From NCBI RefSeq assembly GCF_026991475.1, contig NZ_JALXBK010000077.1:1-55609 (forward strand): a DNA stretch of 55,609 bases, given 5' to 3'. Made by a program: the position numbers and the translations under genes. This document shows, piece by piece, positions 22,200-31,170 of the stretch (position 1 is the first letter of the stretch; every line of letters starts with the position of its first letter). The notes beneath the pieces are model-generated. The model was not told where the DNA came from. It was given only the letters and a program-made list of their open reading frames with translations, and made no database searches. The stretch comes from Sulfurimonas sp. Its GTDB lineage: Bacteria; Campylobacterota; Campylobacteria; Campylobacterales; Sulfurimonadaceae.

Positions 22200-22940
22200 T
22201 TAGATCTTTACTATTTGTGGAGGCATAGGCTTAAATATTGCCTTGACTGCGTTTGCACGGACTTCGCGTGCTTTTCCTCCTGCATACGGAGAAGGATAGT
22301 AAGCACGCTCGATGCACTCATCTGGGTCGTAGTTATTGTCGTACATAAATACGACATTTTTGTCGAGTTTGTTTACATGTGCTGAAAGTGCTCTTGCATA
22401 AGCAATAATGGCTTTGTGGTGACGGTCGTATTTATGTCCTATACCAAAAAAGACAAATTTCCCAGTCAAGCGAATCTTTGGAATATCAATATAGTTAAGA
22501 TTTCTGTCATAACGCGTAAATTGTGTTGAAGTAAGTTTGTCAAGATCTGCATCAAACTCTTCTATAATAGGTGTCGGCTCAATATTTTCACGGTTGTAGT
22601 TAAAAAGATAGCGAATCTCTACAAGTTTACCTTTGTAGTGCTCCTTAAACCCTGCGTTTAGAATGTAGTCTTTTGGAGATTCATTAAGAGGTACAAACTC
22701 ATTATACTTATCAAATCCATCTTCTTGTAAAAAATGGCTCATTTTATAACCCACAGGAGAGCGTTCAGGATTGTAAAGAAATACCGTTCCCGCCACATGT
22801 TTACGCTTCTTTTTAAGCATATTTTCCAAATCATCTACCGTGATTTTCTCATCTTCACTCTCGTTGATGTACATATACTGCTCAACAAGGTAGTCCATAT
22901 CAAAATTTGTCGAAAACTTTCCAAATACCTGCATACTCAT
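22200..22940 (-). CDS. Conserved hypothetical protein, 246 aa
   Basis: I do not recognise a family. The protein is soluble, with no signal peptide and no membrane segment. It contains a hydrophobic strand followed by a charged loop, FVFFGIGHKYDRHHKAIIAY, and a C-terminal basic patch ending in PMPPQIVKI. The start is MSMQ; the second Met (22934) is eight bases from AAAAGGG and may be the true start. It converges on the oxidoreductase gene with no gap. Two CTGCGTTT motifs (22247, 22652) suggest resident DNA. It may be specific to this phylum, which a database search would test. Confidence 0.6.
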   Translation of the reverse strand: MSMQVFGKFSTNFDMDYLVEQYMYINESEDEKITVDDLENMLKKKRKHVAGTVFLYNPERSPVGYKMSHFLQEDGFDKYNEFVPLNESPKDYILNAGFKEHYKGKLVEIRYLFNYNRENIEPTPIIEEFDADLDKLTSTQFTRYDRNLNYIDIPKIRLTGKFVFFGIGHKYDRHHKAIIAYARALSAHVNKLDKNVVFMYDNNYDPDECIERAYYPSPYAGGKAREVRANAVKAIFKPMPPQIVKI

Positions 22941-23102
22941 AACCCTTTTAATTTTGCGAATTATATCCTAAAATTGCTTGGGATTACACATAATGTTTAA
23001 GGAACGAAATGTGTTTTTAAGCATAATAGACATTCACCTGAAATTTTTGTAAAATAGACTAAAAAACTTCAATAAACTAACATTTTAAGTGTTCATTTAT
23101 TG

Positions 23103-23131
23103 TTTAGTATCCACTGTTATTGTGCTATAAT
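23103..23131 (+). promoter_or_regulatory. Putative promoter of the methyltransferase-hydrolase-desaturase operon
   Basis: TATAAT at 23126-23131 is preceded by TGC, forming an extended -10 element. TTTAGT at 23103-23108 can act as a weak -35 with a 17-bp spacer. The methyltransferase ATG lies 37 bases downstream of the -10. This is the only strong promoter-like element upstream of the operon within about 230 bp of otherwise featureless sequence. Confidence 0.45.
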
Positions 23132-23167
23132 GTTCGTTGAATAAATAGTTATATTAAAGGATTATCA

Positions 23168-24160
23168 ATGTTAGAAAAAAATAGTAACTTTAAAAGTGTT
23201 TCAAAAAATCACATAATCGATGATGATTATATTAAGAAATATATTGAAACAACGAAGGCATTTATTTTAGATTGCTTTTCAAAATGGATTAATGAAACAA
23301 AAAAAGCAAATATACAACTTCCTCAACATATTGAAAAATTAGAAAAGATGTTATCTTCTGTAAAATATATTACTCCAAAAGAAGATATTGTTAATAAATA
23401 TTTAGTCAACGAAAATGCTACAATGCTTAGATTGGCAAAACATGTATACAGTCAATCTAATAATCTTATAACCAATCCAAAACGAGTTATTTTTTCTTTT
23501 CCTGAACACAAGATGATATATTCAAAAGACATGGGTGCAACTTATCTGTTTAACAATAAACTACTTAGTAGTATTGTTGATATAATCAGTAACGATATAT
23601 CAAAAAAAATTTCAATCTGTGAAGTTGGTGCAGGTACAGGGGGCTTGACTAAATATTTTTTACCTGTAATATATGATCAGGCTTTAATATATACAATAAC
23701 AGACACATCGAAATTTTTTACAAAAACTTTAAAAAAAGAATTACTCTCCTTTAACAATAAGACAGAATATGAAATATGGAATATTATGGAACCCAAAGAA
23801 AAAACGATAGTCTCCAATTATGATTTAATTGTTGCTAGTAATGTTATACATGCTGCATTAAATATTGAAGTTGCTATTTCAAATATTTTTCATGCTTTAA
23901 CTGATCATGGTTATTTTCTTTTGCATGAAACGACACATGGATATGCATCAAGTTCTGCTATTTGGGGTTTTATGGAGGATCTATGGAAATTCACAGATAA
24001 CAAGAAAAGGTCAGATGGTGCATTCTTATCTATCGATAATTGGTGTACAACAATTTTATCTTTTGGATTTGAACTTATTCAAATAAATGATGACGAGTGT
24101 TTGCAGACAATGTTTCTTTTTAAAAAGTCTACAAATATATTTAAAGGAAGTGTGAAATGA
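23168..24160 (+). CDS. SAM-dependent methyltransferase resembling polyketide-synthase C-methyltransferase domains
   Basis: This 330-aa methyltransferase has motif I EVGAGTGGLTKYFLP (about 155-169), a motif IV-like NYDLIVASNVIHAALNI and the post-motif GYFLLHETT. The run AIWGFMEDLWKFTDNKKRSD followed by a DNW segment matches the stand-alone form of the C-methyltransferase domain of polyketide synthases. An N-terminal helical region of about 150 residues precedes the fold. It opens a three-gene operon with an alpha/beta hydrolase (4-nt overlap) and a fatty acid desaturase. The substrate may be an acyl chain carried as a thioester, which is inference. The AT-rich context and lack of the AAACGCAG motif suggest acquired DNA. 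Confidence 0.75.
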   Translation: MLEKNSNFKSVSKNHIIDDDYIKKYIETTKAFILDCFSKWINETKKANIQLPQHIEKLEKMLSSVKYITPKEDIVNKYLVNENATMLRLAKHVYSQSNNLITNPKRVIFSFPEHKMIYSKDMGATYLFNNKLLSSIVDIISNDISKKISICEVGAGTGGLTKYFLPVIYDQALIYTITDTSKFFTKTLKKELLSFNNKTEYEIWNIMEPKEKTIVSNYDLIVASNVIHAALNIEVAISNIFHALTDHGYFLLHETTHGYASSSAIWGFMEDLWKFTDNKKRSDGAFLSIDNWCTTILSFGFELIQINDDECLQTMFLFKKSTNIFKGSVK

Positions 24161-24855
24161 AATTGAATAATAATTTATTTAAGAGTTATGAAATTTCAAA
24201 ATCAAAACCAAAAATAATTATTTACATAGCCAATGGAATAATGATTGACCCTGTTGAGTCAATAAAAGAACACAATTTTCCAGAGAATAGTAATGTATAT
24301 TTAATCTATTATCATCTAGCACCTTCACTGAAAATATTAGTACATGAATGGCTGAAACATATCGAAAATATTACTCAAGAATCAACTAAAATAATATTAG
24401 TTGGTTTTAGTGCTGGAGCTTTAGTAATTCATAGGATGGTATCAATTCTATCAGAACTTAATATTGAGGTTAATATTAGAACTATTAGTATTTCCCCTGC
24501 TCATTTAAAAAATTTTAATATGCTCAAGGAATTTACAGTAGATTTTTTAGAAAATCTACCAGATAAGATTGGAAAAAGAATGCTTAAGCGTTTACCTTGG
24601 AGCGGTAATTATCCTTTATTAAGCTACGATGAGATTATAGAACAATTAAAATTGTTTCGTTCAGATAAAATATATGAAAACACTTTAGGTGTTGTAGATA
24701 TAATTGTCATACCTTACAATGACAAACTATGCTGTGATGTAAATTTTGCAAAGAAGCATGCTAACGATATTAGACAAATTAATGGTAAGCATGATATTCA
24801 AACATTACCACTAGTATCAATTATAAATAATCAGCTAACCACAGGAGAAAATTAA
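24157..24855 (+). CDS. Alpha/beta-hydrolase-like protein, possible thioesterase or acyltransferase
   Basis: This 232-aa protein has a nucleophile elbow GFSAGA (near 88-93) with the putative Ser, after a hydrophobic strand TKIILV. Downstream, a late Asp/His are less certain: candidate DIIVIPYNDK and the C-terminal GKHDIQTL. It resembles small hydrolases and thioesterases that accompany fatty acid or polyketide modifying genes. It overlaps the methyltransferase by 4 nt (ATGA) and its stop overlaps the desaturase start by one base, so all three are coupled. It could hydrolyse or transfer the modified acyl chain. There is no signal peptide; cytoplasmic. Confidence 0.6.
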   Translation: MKLNNNLFKSYEISKSKPKIIIYIANGIMIDPVESIKEHNFPENSNVYLIYYHLAPSLKILVHEWLKHIENITQESTKIILVGFSAGALVIHRMVSILSELNIEVNIRTISISPAHLKNFNMLKEFTVDFLENLPDKIGKRMLKRLPWSGNYPLLSYDEIIEQLKLFRSDKIYENTLGVVDIIVIPYNDKLCCDVNFAKKHANDIRQINGKHDIQTLPLVSIINNQLTTGEN

Positions 24856-25473
24856 TGAGTAACACTATAGATAAAATATATATAAATAAACATGAGTTTG
24901 AAAGAGATGTAGATGATATAAGAAAAAAAATTCAAAACCCAACTTGGAAGGATTTTAAACATTTAAAAAAAATAGAAACATGGGGAAGAATTGCAACTTT
25001 TTTAGGATTTATATTAATGTTATTGTTAAGCTATTTTGAGTTTATTCACTCCAATATTAATGGCATAGTATTTTGGAGTATAGGAATATTATCTGCTGTT
25101 TTGATAGCTGGTGGAAGTGGTTCGAGGTGGGCAAATATAGCACATTCTATATTACATGGTGCATATGATAAAATACCAGGTATTCCCATAAAGTATACAA
25201 AAGCTGGTTTTGGAAAAGGTTCTCGACGTTTTCTTGATTGGCTAGATTGGTTTAAACCACAGTCTTGGATATATGAACATAATGTACTACATCATTATCA
25301 CTTAGGTGAAAAAAGTGATCCTGATAATGTTGAAAATAATTTGCAATGGCTAATAAATTCGAATATTCCTATGGGTATTAGATACTTAATCATCTTTATA
25401 TTAGCTTGTACTTGGAAGTTTACATATTATGTACCATTGACCATAAAAATTTTAAAAGAAAAAGAACAAGACA
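24855..25473 (+). pseudogene. Fatty acid desaturase, 5' fragment (gene split by IS256-family element)
   Basis: This is the first 206 codons of a membrane-bound fatty acid desaturase, which introduces a double bond into an acyl chain using a di-iron centre. Membrane helices are visible at about 48-70 and 72-95. The first two histidine boxes are present: HSILH (HxxxH) and HNVLHH (HxxHH). The frame continues into insertion-element sequence to a spurious stop near 25511. Removing the element and one copy of the 8-bp target duplication (ACAAGACA) joins this fragment in frame to 26868-27400, giving about 383 aa. The uninterrupted gene would be the last of the operon begun at 23168. Confidence 0.85.
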
Positions 25474-25529
25474 GAGCCTGTAAAATAAACTGTGTAAATC
25501 AGAGCCTGTAAAATAAACTGTGTAAACCA
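25474..25529. repeat. Tandemly duplicated left inverted repeat of the IS256-family element
   Basis: A 28-bp unit beginning GAGCCTGTAAAATAAACTGT lies at 25474-25501 and again at 25502-25529 with two changes near its end. Both copies contain the complete terminal inverted repeat. The outer copy abuts the target duplication, so either end could be used by the transposase. Confidence 0.85.
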
Positions 25530-25545
25530 CCTCCAGCCCATTTAA

Positions 25546-26763
25546 TTATCTTGTATATTTTTCCATAATTTCGCTGAAAAATATACAAAGTTGAGGGTAA
25601 ATTTCACTCCAATTGCGTAAACCGTTACGATTCCACTTTTACTGTACCTCCTGTGTAGATAAATAAAGCACCTTAAAAGCAGCATCAATTGTGGGAAATG
25701 AACCTTTTGATTTTGTGCGTCTTTTAATACTCGAATTTAGCGATTCAATAGGATTTGTGGTATAAATTAGCTTTCTGATTGGCTTAGGATATTTAAAAAA
25801 AGTTGCCAGTTCATTCCAATGATTTGTCCAAGACTGTGTGATATGAGGATACTTATTGCCCCAAATATCATTAAATTCCAAAAGTGCCTCTTGTGCATCT
25901 TCTTCAGTAGTTGCTGTATAGATCATTTTTAAATCAGCTGCTACTGCCTTTCTATCCTTCCAAGAGACATAACGAAGTGAACTTCTAATCTGATGGACAA
26001 TACAACGCTGTATCTCTGCTTTTGAGTAAACAGCTTCAATAGCTTCATTGAAACCGTTCAGTCCATCTATGGCAAAAATAAGTACATCATCTACACCACG
26101 GTTCTTGAGTTCATTCAGAAGTGAAAGCCAATATTTACTTGTTTCATTTTCACCGATCCAAATACCTAATATCTCTTTTTTTCCTTCAAGCGTGACTCCT
26201 AGCATAATATATGCAGCTATGTTTTTTACGACTCTATCCACTCTTATTTTTAGGACGGTAGCATCCATAAAGATTATTGGATAGATTGGTTCAAGCGGTC
26301 GGTTCTGCCACTCTTTTGCTTTCTCTATGATTGTATCGGTGATATTTGAGATTGTTTGTTCAGAAAGTTGATAACCATAGAGATCATCAAGGTGATGCTG
26401 TATATCTCTTACGCTCATCCCTTTGGTATAAAGTGAAAGTATAAGATCCTCACTGCCGTTTAGAAGTGTTTCCCGTTTCTTTACAAGCTGTGGTTCAAAC
26501 GAGCCCTCTCTGTCTCTTGGTATGGCGACATCTACATCACCATATTTCGATTTTAGAGTCTTTTTGTTTGTACCGTTACGATAGTTGGAGTTATCTGACT
26601 TCTGGTGCTTCTCGTAACCTAAATGCTCATCAAGTTCCACTTCAGTAGCTGTTTGAATCGTTTCTCGAAGAAGAGCTTTGAAATCATCCAATATCCCATC
26701 GAGTGAAATATCTTTGCCTTCTTTTATTTGTCTGCGTAGTTCTTCTTTATTTAAAATATCCAT
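25546..26763 (-). pseudogene. IS256-family transposase with an in-frame stop near the C-terminus
   Basis: This is a DDE mutator-type transposase. The acidic triad is IFMDATVLK (first Asp), FAIDGLNGF (second Asp) and the Glu of NPIESLNSS. The visible product ends ...LYLSTQEVQ at a TAA (25639-25641), but the same frame runs on for 30 more codons (KWNRNGLRNWSEIYPQLCIF, then a further ten) to a TAA at 25546-25548. That tail is what full-length relatives carry after the EVQ/KKW junction, so the TAA looks like a nonsense mutation in a gene of about 405 codons. I choose the start at 26763 (ATG) because AAGGA lies eight bases upstream; an ATG at 26778 adds five residues. The truncated form may be inactive. 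Confidence 0.8.
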
Positions 26764-26867
26764 CTGTAAATCCTTCAAATAAATCTATCAATAATAGCAA
26801 TTTTTAAGCCTATCTGATAAATTAGTTTTTTGGATTTACACAGTTGTTTTTACACCCTCACAAGACA

Positions 26868-27400
26868 CTCCCAAAAATTTAGAAAATCATTACAACCCAT
26901 TTACGAAATATGGAAAAATATTTTGGTTTCAATATATATTACCTTATTTTACTATTCGCTTTATAGTAACACCTCTTATCTTTTTACCATTTGGAGTAAA
27001 TGCTGCGATGAATAGCCTGCTTATTTTAATACTTGCCGAATGTTTTGCAAATATTAATTCATTTATAGTAATCTTACCGAATCATGCAGCAGCTGATATT
27101 TATAGATTTAATGGTGCTTATAAATCAAAAGGTGATTTTTATCTAAGGCAAATTATAGATACGGTTAATTATAAAACAGGATTTGAACTTTTGGATTTTT
27201 TACATGGGTGGTTAAATTATCAGATTGAACACCATCTTTTCCCTAATCTAACACTTAGTCAACATAAAGTAGTTCAACCTTATGTAAAAGAATTATGTAA
27301 AAAATATAATTTAGAATATAGGGAAGAAAATATTTTTAAAAGATCTATTCTGACTTTATCAGTTCTTGTTGGTAAAACAAAACCAAATATAATTGATTAA
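26868..27400 (+). pseudogene. Fatty acid desaturase, 3' fragment
   Basis: This continues the desaturase after the insertion element. Read in frame from the joined codon it gives TPKNLENHYNPFTKYGKIFW, then membrane helices at TIRFIVTPLIFLPFG and NSLLILILAEC. The third histidine box is IEHHLFP (QIEHH). The C-terminus is basic and ends IID. An ATG at 27008 could in theory start an 130-aa product, but this would lack two histidine boxes and be non-functional. Nothing else in the fragment is degenerate, which points to a recent insertion. Confidence 0.85.
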
Positions 27401-27433
27401 GATATATAGATTTTAAAAATTACATTTGATGGA

Positions 27434-27450
27434 TAAATCTCCACTTTTAA
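27434..27450. repeat. 17-bp direct repeat, first copy (second at 28789-28805)
   Basis: TAAATCTCCACTTTTAA occurs at 27434-27450 and identically at 28789-28805, followed in both by GCAAAGATA after a few bases (12 and 2). The two copies bracket the GNAT and broken toxin-antitoxin cassettes, about 1.34 kb. They may be edges of an inserted segment or fragments of a dispersed repeat. Confidence 0.7.
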
Positions 27451-27466
27451 GGTGTAAAGAGGCAAA

Positions 27467-27538
27467 GATATAACAAATACGAGGAGGCTAATAATTGACC
27501 CTAGCGGCTTAATTATAGCTCACGACAACCGTTATATC
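27467..27538. repeat. attC-like imperfect inverted repeat
   Basis: GATATAAC (27467-27474) and GTTATATC (27531-27538) form an exact 8-bp inverted pair 72 bp apart, end to end. Inner arms GAGGCTAATAATT and AATTATAGCTC pair imperfectly with extrahelical bases. Size, bulged stem and the AAC...GTT ends recall integron attC sites, but the consensus RYYYAAC/GTTRRRY is only partly met. It sits upstream of a GNAT gene. The rest of the 273-bp gap to that gene contains only a short hairpin, CACCTTTTT...AAAAAGGTG, at about 27623-27642. Confidence 0.4.
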
Positions 27539-27674
27539 AAGTAGTCAAATCCTTTCTTGCAAAAAAAGAGAGGGGCATCTTGCCAACAATTTAATAGAAC
27601 TTCTCTTATGCTAGTTCCCTCAGCACCTTTTTAAAAAAAGGTGACCAAAAACTAAAGAAATAAAAGAGTAAATA

Positions 27675-28121
27675 TTGATACAAATTAAAAATATTCCTGT
27701 TGAAAAAACATACACAGTAAGACTTAATGTACTAAGACCACATCAAAGTATTAGTGATTGTCAATATGATGGAGATACAGATGAACTTACAAAACATTTT
27801 GGTGCATATTTAGATAATAAACTTATTGGAATAGTCTCAATTTATAAATCTAAAATCAAACATATTGATGATAAAAATTGCTGGCAAATTCGAGCGATGG
27901 CGATAATTAAAAATATTCGTAAAAAAGGATATGCTAGTAGCCTACTTAAAGTTGCGGAAACATATGCTTTAAAAAACGGAGCAAATTATATCTGGTGTAA
28001 TGCTCGTATCTCCGCTATAGGGTTTTATGAAAAACATAACTATAAACTCTATGGTGATGAATTTAATGTTAAAGATATTGGACCACATTACATAATGATA
28101 AAAGATTGTTTTGTTGATTGA
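27675..28121 (+). CDS. GNAT-family N-acetyltransferase
   Basis: This 148-aa acetyltransferase has the acetyl-CoA motif A region IRAMAIIKNIRKKGYASSLL (Arg-Lys-Lys-Gly-Tyr-Ala), followed by the helix VAETYALKNG, the strand YIWCNARI and the late SAIGFYEKHNYKLYG. The substrate cannot be predicted. It starts at a TTG (27675) with no strong ribosome-binding site. It has no operon partner and is flanked by attC-like inverted repeats, with GATATAAC again eight bases after the stop. GNAT genes are frequent in mobile gene cassettes, which fits this arrangement. Confidence 0.8.
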   Translation: MIQIKNIPVEKTYTVRLNVLRPHQSISDCQYDGDTDELTKHFGAYLDNKLIGIVSIYKSKIKHIDDKNCWQIRAMAIIKNIRKKGYASSLLKVAETYALKNGANYIWCNARISAIGFYEKHNYKLYGDEFNVKDIGPHYIMIKDCFVD

Positions 28122-28128
28122 AATGTTC

Positions 28129-28212
28129 GATATAACAAGTACTTGCACAAAAATATGTTTCCCTCACGGGCAAATATTTTGAAGCGAAAAAATGTGCTAT
28201 TATGATAGATAT
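28129..28212. repeat. Second GATATAAC site and hairpin after the GNAT gene
   Basis: GATATAAC at 28129-28136 repeats exactly the left end of the inverted repeat at 27467 and lies eight bases after the GNAT stop. Behind it, AAAATATGTTTCCC and GGGCAAATATTTT form an imperfect hairpin with a TCAC loop. No exact GTTATATC partner follows, so this copy is degenerate if it is an attC-like site. Confidence 0.35.
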
Positions 28213-28251
28213 TACAATGATTGTGAACAGAAACATATTTTTGAAGACAGT

Positions 28252-28442
28252 CGTTGTAAGTTCCCGCAAAGCGGAAACTTACAACGGCGAAGCTGAGCTC
28301 TAAACGAGCCACCAACCTTTTGTCGTATTCCGCTATGCTACATACAACAAAAGGCAGGAGTCTCACATCAAAGTGTTTTCCAGAAAATCGCAAGTGAATT
28401 TTCCGAAATACACATTAATGAAGCTCAGCTTCGCCGTTATAC
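28252..28442. repeat. Compound hairpin region (three stems)
   Basis: The 365-bp gene-free stretch 28122-28486 holds three strong palindromes. (1) CGTTGTAAGTTCCCGC (28252-28267) and its complement (28271-28286), 15 of 16 bp with a 3-nt loop. (2) AACGGCGAAGCTGAGCT (28283-28299) and its perfect 17-bp complement (28422-28438). (3) within the loop of (2), CCTTTTGT.GTAT (28316-28328) and ATAC.ACAAAAGG (28342-28354). Stem 1 shares bases with stem 2, so they are alternatives. It could be a recombination site, a MITE-like element or a structured RNA. Confidence 0.65.
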
Positions 28443-28486
28443 TGAAAAATCAAATATGCTATAATACAAACAAAAAAGGAGAGTCC

Positions 28487-28675
28487 ATGGTAGCCATAAA
28501 ACAAGAAGCACAAAAGATGATACAAAATCTTCCTGATAGCTGTACTTATGAAGACATTCAATATCACCTTTATGTTGTAGAAAAAATTAAAAATGGTATT
28601 AGTCGTGCTGAAAATGGCGAAGTCTCATCACATCAAGATGAAAAACAAAGAATGTCTAAATGGCTTTCACACTAA
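28487..28675 (+). CDS. Antitoxin of a RelE/ParE-type module
   Basis: This 62-aa protein starts at an ATG at 28487 with AAAGGAG seven bases upstream; longer upstream frames lack any start support. The C-terminal part, NGISRAENGEVSSHQDEKQR, followed by MSKWL, has the spacing seen in antitoxins of the putative-addiction-module-component family (a 'G.v.sh.e....l.kWl' ending). It overlaps the toxin fragment by 16 nt. Because the toxin is truncated, this antitoxin is probably an orphan. Confidence 0.65.
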   Translation: MVAIKQEAQKMIQNLPDSCTYEDIQYHLYVVEKIKNGISRAENGEVSSHQDEKQRMSKWLSH

Positions 28676-28758
28676 AGTGGTCTGAAGAGGCTCTTGAAGA
28701 TATTGAGTCTATCGCCACTTACATAGAAAAAGATTCCCCAACTTATGCGAATAAGTAG
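28660..28758 (+). pseudogene. RelE/ParE-family toxin, truncated and frameshifted
   Basis: The ATG at 28660 overlaps the antitoxin end. It reads AFTLKWSEEALEDIESIATY and then IEKDSPTYANK before a TAG at 28756-28758. A normal member continues YANKVVxKI for a total of about 95 residues. Inserting one base at the NK codon restores VAVKINVPSL, the expected continuation, but a TGA follows after about ten codons and the remaining half is missing. So the toxin has a frameshift and a deletion; the deletion ends close to the 17-bp repeat at 28789. Only about a third of the gene remains. Confidence 0.7.
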
Positions 28759-28841
28759 CCGTTAAAATAAATGTCCCATCTCTGTGAGTAAATCTCCACT
28801 TTTAACTTGCAAAGATAAAAATATGGAAAAGTTATAGTACG

Positions 28842-28880
28842 TTGACACTCAAAAAAATAAATGATATACTTTGGATATAC
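28842..28880 (+). promoter_or_regulatory. mazEF promoter with direct-repeat operator
   Basis: TTGACA (28842-28847), a 17-bp spacer and TATACT (28865-28870) make a near-consensus sigma-70 promoter. GATATAC occurs at 28863-28869 and again at 28874-28880, a spacing of 11 bp (one helical turn), overlapping the -10. MazE-type antitoxins repress their own promoter, so this direct repeat is a plausible operator. GAGGAG lies 7 to 12 bases before the mazE ATG. Confidence 0.6.
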
Positions 28881-28898
28881 AGATATGAGGAGAATGTT

Positions 28899-29141
28899 AT
28901 GACAGCAACTATTTCAAGTTGGGGTAATTCTCAGGGTGTCAGATTTCCAAAAAATGTTATGAAAGAACTTCATTTATCAATTGGGGACAAGGTAAAAGTT
29001 TTAGTTGAAAATCAAAAAATCGTATTAGAACCAGTAGATAAATCACGGGAAAAATACGATATTAATGAATTGGTTAAGCAATTGCCAGCTGATTATACAA
29101 CTTATGAAGAGTTTGATAATAAAATGGGAAGAGAAGAGTGA
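28899..29141 (+). CDS. mazE: MazE-like antitoxin (AbrB/SpoVT fold)
   Basis: This 80-aa antitoxin has the swapped-hairpin AbrB start: TATISSWGNSQGVRFPKNVM, then KELHLSIGDKVKVLVENQKI, and an acidic disordered tail (TTYEEFDNKMGREE) that would mask the toxin. The start is the ATG at 28899 (GAGGAG upstream); an upstream extension to 28842 would run through the promoter and is rejected. The stop TGA overlaps the GTG start of mazF, so synthesis is coupled. The pair is intact and acts as a toxin-antitoxin module. It is in the motif-free accessory block, consistent with acquisition. Confidence 0.88.
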   Translation: MTATISSWGNSQGVRFPKNVMKELHLSIGDKVKVLVENQKIVLEPVDKSREKYDINELVKQLPADYTTYEEFDNKMGREE

Positions 29142-29470
29142 TAAAATATATTCCTGAGCAGGGAGATATAGTGGCTCTAAGTTTTGATCCACAAAGTAGT
29201 CATGAACAAAAGGGTAGAAGAGCTGCTATTATCATTAGCAATAAAGTATTTAACCAATACCTAGGGCTTGCGTTTGCATGTCCGATAACAAATACTAAGA
29301 GAGGTTTTCCATTTCATATTAAAGTTGAGAGTGAAAATATCACTGGTTTTATTATGGCTGAACAATTGAAGTCAATAGATTATAATTCAAGAAATATAAA
29401 ATTTATTGAAAAAGCAGATCAGAAAACAGTAAATAAAATACTGGGCATTATTGATAGTATCATTGAGTAA
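29138..29470 (+). CDS. mazF: MazF/PemK-family mRNA endoribonuclease toxin
   Basis: This 110-aa toxin cleaves RNA in a sequence-specific way and is held inactive by MazE. Family signatures are GDIVALSF near the N-terminus, KGRRAAIIISNKVFNQY (the RR pair and the ISN strand) and FACPITN, then FIMAEQLKSID. The GTG start overlaps the mazE stop by four bases (GTGA). No truncation or substitution is seen. The 5'-nucleotidase gene begins 12 nt downstream, at the border where core-like sequence resumes. Confidence 0.9.
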   Translation: MIKYIPEQGDIVALSFDPQSSHEQKGRRAAIIISNKVFNQYLGLAFACPITNTKRGFPFHIKVESENITGFIMAEQLKSIDYNSRNIKFIEKADQKTVNKILGIIDSIIE

Positions 29471-29482
29471 CAAAGAGGGTGT

Positions 29483-30397
29483 ATGGCATATAATTTAAAA
29501 GATAAACTTGTAGTAGCGGTGAGTTCACGCGCGCTTTTTGACCTTGAAGATGAGAACAGGGTATTTGAAGAGCGTGGGCTTGATGAGTACTACAAGTATC
29601 AGCTTGAAAAAGAGAATGAACCCCTCAAAAAAGGGACTGGATATAGACTCATAGAAAATCTTCTAAAAATAAATGAGCATTTTGCAGAAGATGAAAAACA
29701 GGTAGAGGTTATAATTCTCTCTAAAAACAATGCAGGAACAAGTTTGCGCATTACAAATGCCATAGCGAGCTACAAGCTTGACATACAAAGAAGTGGCTGG
29801 ACAAGTGGACGCAATACGTCTAACTATCTCACAGCCTTTAAAGTCGATCTTTTTTTAAGTGCAGATGATAATGATGTTATCAATGCCATCGAAAATGGTG
29901 TTGCAGCGGCAAAGATACTTCCCTCAAACAAAGATATTCATACTTCACTTGGAGATCAAGTACGCATTGCGTTTGATGGAGATGCTGTACTCTTTTCTGA
30001 AGAGTCAGAGCTTATCTATAAAGAGCAGGGGCTTGAGGCTTTCATAGCGCATGAAAAGGCAAATCGTGATAACCCTATGAAAAAAGGTCCTTTTGCAAAA
30101 CTCTTGCTCACCATCGCCAATATTCAGAAAAAATTTAAAGACAAAGAATCACCTATTCGTACAGCACTTGTCACCGCACGAAGTGCTCCGACACACGAGC
30201 GGGTAATAAAAACACTTAATGTCTGGGGTGTTCGCATAGATGAGGCATTCTTCTTAGGCGGCAGTGAGAAGTACGAGGTACTTGAAGCCTTTGGTGCTGA
30301 CATCTTTTTTGATGATCAAGATGTACATTTGGAACTCTCATCAGATGTTGTGCCTTCGGCAAAAGTGATGCATAAAACTATTTTAGAATGTGAATAA
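29483..30397 (+). CDS. 5'-nucleotidase (cytosolic cN-I-like family)
   Basis: This 304-aa protein resembles the cytosolic 5'-nucleotidase family better known from animal NT5C1. It carries a KLVVAVSSRALFDL N-terminal strand, the WTSGRNTSNYLTAF segment and RIAFDGDAVLFSEESE, which looks like the nucleophile-region aspartate pair, followed by the C-terminal FDDQDVHLELS. It would dephosphorylate nucleoside monophosphates. It begins 12 nt after mazF and ends in a 1-nt overlap (TAATG) with an alpha/beta hydrolase gene; the hydrolase and VanZ genes form its operon. Confidence 0.8.
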   Translation: MAYNLKDKLVVAVSSRALFDLEDENRVFEERGLDEYYKYQLEKENEPLKKGTGYRLIENLLKINEHFAEDEKQVEVIILSKNNAGTSLRITNAIASYKLDIQRSGWTSGRNTSNYLTAFKVDLFLSADDNDVINAIENGVAAAKILPSNKDIHTSLGDQVRIAFDGDAVLFSEESELIYKEQGLEAFIAHEKANRDNPMKKGPFAKLLLTIANIQKKFKDKESPIRTALVTARSAPTHERVIKTLNVWGVRIDEAFFLGGSEKYEVLEAFGADIFFDDQDVHLELSSDVVPSAKVMHKTILECE

Positions 30398-31170
30398 TGA
30401 TATATGTAGTTTTTTTTCTATTTACATTCTTGATTCTCATTGGGGTGTTTTATCAGTGGCAGTATTTTATGATATTTTCTCCCACCTACATAAAAGAGCG
30501 ACGACTTTGTGATAAATGTGAACTTTTAAGTATAAAAACTGATGATGGCATAGAACTTGAGGGCGCTGTCTATGAGCCTGTAAACGCAGTGACAACACTA
30601 CTTGTTTTTGTTGGACGCTCTCATGATGCTGTAGCATTAATGGGACGACTCAGTGAAGTTTATAAAAATGTACGTGTCATTGCGTTTAATTACCGTGGCT
30701 ATGGAAAAAGTGGCGGTGTTGCAAATGAGAAAAATATTTTAAGTGACAGCTTGAAAATTGCGCAGCTTGTGCAGAAGCATTATGGTGATTTTTATCTTTT
30801 AGGTTTTTCACTTGGCTCGAATGTTGCTGCGTTTGTGGCAAAGCAACATAGTGTAAAAGCACTCTTTTTGGTCGGGGCATTTGACTCTGTTACAGCACTC
30901 TCAAAAGAGAAGTACCCAAAACTCTGTTGCATTGAAAAACTACTGCGTTACAAGTTTCCTACTGATGTGTATGTACGGGATGTCACTGCAAAGACATATC
31001 TTTTTGTAAGTAGAGATGATGAGACCATTCCACTTAAAAATGCTCAAAAACTTAAAGAGTCGGTGAAAAATCTTGTTCTTTACAGTGAGATTGAGGGACT
31101 AAGTCATAAAGAACTTTTGTGGGATACAACAGTAACAAATCAAATAAATAAGGTAATGGAAAATGAGTAA
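30397..31170 (+). CDS. Membrane-anchored alpha/beta hydrolase
   Basis: This 257-aa protein has an N-terminal hydrophobic helix (about 2-22) and then an alpha/beta hydrolase fold. A VFVGRS strand and FNYRGYGKSGG (the RGxGxS loop common in the YfhR/Bem46-like group) precede the nucleophile elbow GFSLGS (Ser). The acid is likely in SRDDETIP and the base His in LSHKELL. It overlaps the 5'-nucleotidase stop by one base and the VanZ-like gene by eight. The substrate is unknown. CTGCGTTT and AAACGCAG motifs are inside (30582, 30827). Confidence 0.8.
   Translation: MIYVVFFLFTFLILIGVFYQWQYFMIFSPTYIKERRLCDKCELLSIKTDDGIELEGAVYEPVNAVTTLLVFVGRSHDAVALMGRLSEVYKNVRVIAFNYRGYGKSGGVANEKNILSDSLKIAQLVQKHYGDFYLLGFSLGSNVAAFVAKQHSVKALFLVGAFDSVTALSKEKYPKLCCIEKLLRYKFPTDVYVRDVTAKTYLFVSRDDETIPLKNAQKLKESVKNLVLYSEIEGLSHKELLWDTTVTNQINKVMENE

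Follow-up and report, generated by a model that had tools for sequence, protein, structure and literature searches.

Gene cassettes of integrons carry one open reading frame (ORF), sometimes two or none (review: PMC8618304). Within the genus, Sulfurimonas autotrophica has been listed with an In0 and a CALIN (PMC10295459). Among C-methyltransferases (C-MTs), a His-Glu dyad and a Tyr have been named as catalytic, and a pull-down showed ACP binding by AmxMT1, a free-standing C-MT homologue from an anammox fatty-acid cluster (PMC9821293). The window analyzed here is a 55,609-nucleotide stretch of Sulfurimonas sp. DNA. It contains an operon that was originally predicted to comprise methyltransferase (MT), hydrolase, and desaturase genes. 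The three genes are there, and their integron cassette nature was overlooked in that prediction. On the evidence of sequence anatomy, including attI, attC, an insertion sequence (IS), and the gene families, the operon forms the first cassette (cassette 1) of an integron array (Table 1). Overall, the three genes are probably the cargo of one integron cassette in an integrase-less secondary chromosomal array and encode an acyl-modifying pathway.

Table 1. Features of the cassette array and its attI platform, in window coordinates. The slash in G/TT marks the crossover point.
Feature	Position	Strand	Evidence or remarks
intI-attI intergenic remnant, intI missing	22990-23122	+	Matches DNA upstream of intI in G014 (contig C56)
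Extended -10 TGCTATAAT, Pc-like promoter reading into cassette 1	23123-23131	+	Position conserved at other attI sites
attI core TGTTCGTTGAATAAATAG/TT	23131-23150	+	Crossover between 23148 and 23149
Gene cassette 1 (MT-hydrolase-desaturase plus IS)	23149-27531	+	G/TT at attI and at attC
MT, stand-alone PKS-type C-methyltransferase, 330 aa	23168-24160	+	Pfam PF08242, similarity to CurJ 5thy, motifs
Small alpha/beta hydrolase, 232 aa	24157-24855	+	Sub-threshold PF06821, motif positions
Desaturase 5' part, histidine boxes 1 and 2 (HSILH, HNVLHH)	24855-25473	+	Includes target duplication
IS256-family element	25474-26859	-	Transposase 25639-26778 (minus strand), NF033543, inverted repeats, target site duplication
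Desaturase 3' part, box 3 (QIEHH)	26868-27400	+	ORF 27008-27400; frame open from 26870; PF00487
attC of cassette 1	27467-27538	-	Folded bottom strand; hairpin with unpaired bases; covariance match
Gene cassette 2, GNAT acetyltransferase	27532-28253	+	ORF 27675-28121, PF00583; attC 28129-28260
Cassette 3, ORF-less, nearly all attC-like hairpin	28254-28436	+	Fold z -11.9; attC model E 0.038
Cassette 4, ParD-like antitoxin and truncated toxin	28437-28761	+	91% match in G011 array; also in G014
MazE/MazF-like pair, probable last cassette	28842-29470	+	ORFs; family by inspection; no clean attC seen

The attI platform spans 23123-23148, and the operon starts exactly at its G/TT, 19 bp 5' of the MT. 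A search of 12 congeneric genomes for the attI core pattern gave nine sites, distributed over six of the genomes, and a reversed-pattern control gave none. These sites are alike upstream of G/TT, TATAAT included, and the DNA beyond G/TT differs at each. Two of the nine (in G014 and G001) adjoin intI, and a variant attI lies beside the IntI gene on contig C13 of the genome studied here (G000). Because the upstream sequence is conserved, the downstream sequence differs, and some sites lie beside an integrase, the recurrent sites are attI sites, and the promoter belongs to the platform. The extended -10 is identical on contig C120 of G001, where it lies beside intI. Thus the extended -10 of the original prediction is a real element, but it is not the operon's own, as it belongs to a conserved attI platform present at several loci. 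Cassette 1 is presumably transcribed from this attI-side promoter.

No intI lies beside the window attI, so the locus is not a complete integron. The junction in the window, where sequence from upstream of intI is kept and intI is gone, recurs at the end of contig C70 in the nearest relative, G014. attI-like sites away from intI are also present in G011, G028, and G001, all of which do have intI. G011 is a single-contig genome; therefore, attI without integrase is not only an artifact of draft assembly. The full integron of the genome studied here is on contig C13 (10038-13294) and consists of IntI, the attI variant, and two cassettes, one without an ORF and one with an MFS transporter and attC. 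Its IntI matches TIGR02249 with 408 bits (cut-off 265). This IntI or a predecessor probably inserted cassette 1, in which case the integrase would have acted in trans.

Cassette 1 is 4383 bp long, or about 3.0 kb without the IS, and its attC starts 67 bp past the desaturase stop codon. The cassette attC sites form bottom-strand hairpins with conserved R and L boxes, and the R boxes match the general attC consensus at 6 of 7 positions. Using covariance model R2, from which the window site was left out, the cassette 1 attC scored 62 bits (E 2.6e-12) and the cassette 2 attC scored 37.7 bits (E 2e-6). The best three matches of this model in 55.6 kb are three successive cassette junctions. Folding energy alone is unexceptional for the cassette 1 attC (z -1.5). 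The full attC model, based on seven sites, detected regular arrays in G011 and G044 and had no match across 617 kb of other Campylobacterota loci. An Rfam search returned no match at the array. The cassette 3 unit stands right after attI on contigs C13 of G000, C56 of G014, and C243 of G044. It had been considered a MITE (repeat r2), which was dropped because it begins exactly at G/TT past attI in three genomes. Some cassettes in the Sulfurimonas arrays analyzed here have at least two ORFs, a count that undetected attC sites may inflate.

Comparison with congeners identified an empty site. In G034, G044, G011, and G033, the gene at 22200-22940 adjoins the gene at 30397, without an intervening array, and G028 and G009 have the same adjacency, less tight. 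The copy of cassette 4 in the G011 array has 91% identity, compared to 71-84% for the vertically inherited flanks. The MT and hydrolase genes have a G+C content of 27%, compared to about 34% for the window. It is very unlikely that this is an ordinary resident lipid operon lying by chance beside integron remnants: even though the desaturase belongs to a family native to the Campylobacterota and has an intact paralogue on contig C47 of the same genome, the exact start at attI G/TT, the attC after the desaturase, the low G+C, and the empty site in congeners all argue for a cassette.

Octamer AAACGCAG has 41 copies in the window compared to a Markov expectation of 1.5, with equal numbers on the two strands. 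Genome-wide it has 1344 copies, compared to 39 for a reversed control. A minority of Sulfurimonas genomes show similar enrichment (2331 copies in G503, 1822 in G016, 1698 in G397, and 1367 in G014), and most are near background. The octamer looks like a DNA-uptake-type signature. The longest AAACGCAG gap in the window (22652-30582) spans the array, in agreement with the original description of the operon as lying in a motif-free block.

The three ORFs of the operon are on the plus strand, have ribosome-binding sites, and overlap translationally (ATGA at 24157-24160; position 24855 common to stop and start), which bears out the claim that they are tightly coupled. Fusion of separate cassettes as the source of the three genes is disfavored by the overlapping stop and start codons. 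The MT matches Pfam PF08242 (Methyltransf_12) with 44 bits. Its nearest solved structure is CurJ 5thy (E 2.7e-20), and it also matches citrinin PKS, LovB, PsoF, and the stand-alone anammox AmxMT1 (7dmb, E 2.8e-7). GAGTG of its SAM motif VGAGTGG is kept in the alignment with nine homologues, and H228 (in NVIHAA) and E254 (in LLHETT) are invariant across the MT and these homologues. This invariance suggests that H228 and E254 are the catalytic His-Glu dyad described in the literature on CurJ and AmxMT1. The CurJ match and the homologue alignment agree with the proposed PKS-type C-methyltransferase, with a predicted class I SAM fold, lid region, and His/Glu pair. The MT is a free ORF and not part of a PKS, and a C-MT domain search found no second C-MT domain in the genome; to the extent of that search, the MT stands alone.

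The hydrolase is very divergent, and its family assignment is uncertain. Its best Pfam match, PF06821 (Ser_hydrolase), is sub-threshold (E 0.0024), and its AF2 model has a pLDDT of 35. It has GFSAG at residues 83-87, and motif positions indicate Ser85-Asp189-His212 as the likely triad. It could thus be retained as a small alpha/beta hydrolase, with family profiles matching below threshold; as to the thioesterase-like part of the prediction, no thioesterase family profile matched, and similarity was limited to a weak one to Ser_hydrolase.

The desaturase gene is interrupted by an IS256-family element. The transposase matches NF033543 with 431 bits, and the element has terminal inverted repeats, the left one doubled, and an 8-bp target site duplication (ACAAGACA) at 25466-25473 and 26860-26867. 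Reading frames on either side fit simple insertion into an intact gene. The 3' part matches PF00487 (E 3e-13). The 5' part is 44-52% identical to genus paralogues. Against a chromosomal desaturase family present in 30 of 99 genomes searched, identity is about 45-58% for the 5' part and 53-63% for the 3' part. The membrane desaturase with three histidine boxes was correctly recognized as to the boxes, but not as a single gene: the IS parts boxes 1 and 2 from box 3, so that no single protein has all three. The IS had been hinted at by the phrase "restored operon." With the desaturase split, the operon is probably inactive as encoded, and the interruption may be a sign of a pathway already in decay. 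A second contig of this assembly, C12, carries a copy of 25928-53372 of the window at 99.8-100% identity and is either a redundant contig or a strain variant.

Co-occurrence of the three genes in other genomes had been proposed as a test whose failure would refute the prediction, and the outcome was negative in the genus, in the phylum, and in 80 desaturase neighborhoods. The MT was not found in 134 other genomes of the genus, a KsgA match in G040 aside, or in 397 genomes of the phylum, apart from weak or PKS-like matches. The G040 match was rejected as an MT relative, being KsgA, and so was the G198 match in the phylum, which is PKS-like and lies inside a 3241-aa open frame. Scans of genome contigs and viral contigs gave no close MT relatives. 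For the hydrolase, the 397 phylum genomes gave a single weak match, within a 1708-aa frame, and plasmid and viral-contig scans gave none. The MT and hydrolase are also absent near the 80 best desaturase relatives (all labeled as Campylobacterota taxa except one labeled only "bacterium"), in up to 8 kb of surrounding DNA per side. The conserved desaturase genes of relatives were rejected as orthologues of the operon gene, their gene context being unrelated. Co-occurrence therefore gives no support, since the MT and hydrolase were detected at no other locus and neither lies near these 80 relatives; because both lack close relatives in the sampled genomes, conserved pairing cannot be demonstrated. 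Even so, the overlap of the genes favors a functional unit.

Gene families suggest an order of reactions for this unit, in which methylation would be followed by release and then desaturation. Most likely, the MT would act in trans on a beta-ketoacyl-ACP supplied by the ordinary type II fatty acid synthase and C-methylate it at the alpha carbon. The hydrolase may then release or edit the acyl thioester, and the desaturase would introduce a double bond into the chain or into its lipid. As encoded, the pathway would halt before desaturation, unless the intact C47 paralogue substitutes. Counting against this explanation, cassette 1 encodes neither a dedicated ACP nor a ketosynthase. Judged from the gene families, the most likely function is still the one originally proposed, in which an acyl chain is methylated and desaturated with no PKS involved.

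The same cassette could instead make a secreted or volatile small molecule, such as a methylated polyketide-like ketone or acid, and not a membrane lipid. We consider this unlikely; the nearest relatives of the MT work on polyketides and a releasing hydrolase would suit a free acid, but the desaturase family resembles membrane acyl desaturases and the cassette has no ketosynthase. A non-metabolic use, such as phage defense, appears extremely unlikely. About 10% of Vibrio cholerae integron cassettes are anti-phage, but defense systems of more than two genes (such as CRISPR-Cas and BREX) are absent from integrons (PMC12409362). The MT has one weak PADLOC match (mad2, E 1e-5) in a generic methyltransferase region, whereas the hydrolase and desaturase match no defense family. 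Tentatively, a complete three-enzyme acyl-modifying pathway may move among Sulfurimonas strains as one cassette, expressed from attI platforms that lack intI and rely on one integrase at another place in the genome. If so, membrane or signal lipid chemistry would join the shuffled cassette pool.

A cassette with three enzyme genes is unusual compared to the one or sometimes two small ORFs described in reviews. It is also unusually large, at about 3 kb, and its overlapping three-enzyme operon adds lipid or polyketide-like chemistry to what cassettes are known to carry. The Sulfurimonas attI platforms without an integrase suggest that one integrase may supply several arrays. Among the papers searched, no relevant one links integron, attC, and desaturase.

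Compared to described systems, the MT resembles PKS C-MT domains (CurJ, citrinin PKS, LovB) in its N-terminal lid homology, SAM motif, and invariant His and Glu; it differs in being free-standing and the sole C-MT domain in its genome, and it shares 21-26% identity with the aligned domains. AmxMT1 is likewise a stand-alone C-MT homologue, with beta-ketoacyl-ACP as its proposed substrate (PMC9821293). However, AmxMT1 sits in a FASII cluster, has no membrane desaturase partner, and is not on an integron. The desaturase shares 44-63% identity with the Campylobacterota membrane desaturase family (PF00487; HxxxH, HxxxHH, QIEHH) and has all boxes across its two halves, but the window copy is an interrupted paralogue and not the widespread chromosomal copy. 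The locus as a whole resembles chromosomal integrons and CALIN/In0 elements (PMC8618304) in its IntI family, attI with promoter, folded attC, G/TT junctions, and toxin-antitoxin and GNAT cassettes. It differs from them in having second-site attI arrays without intI and a cassette of three overlapping enzyme genes.
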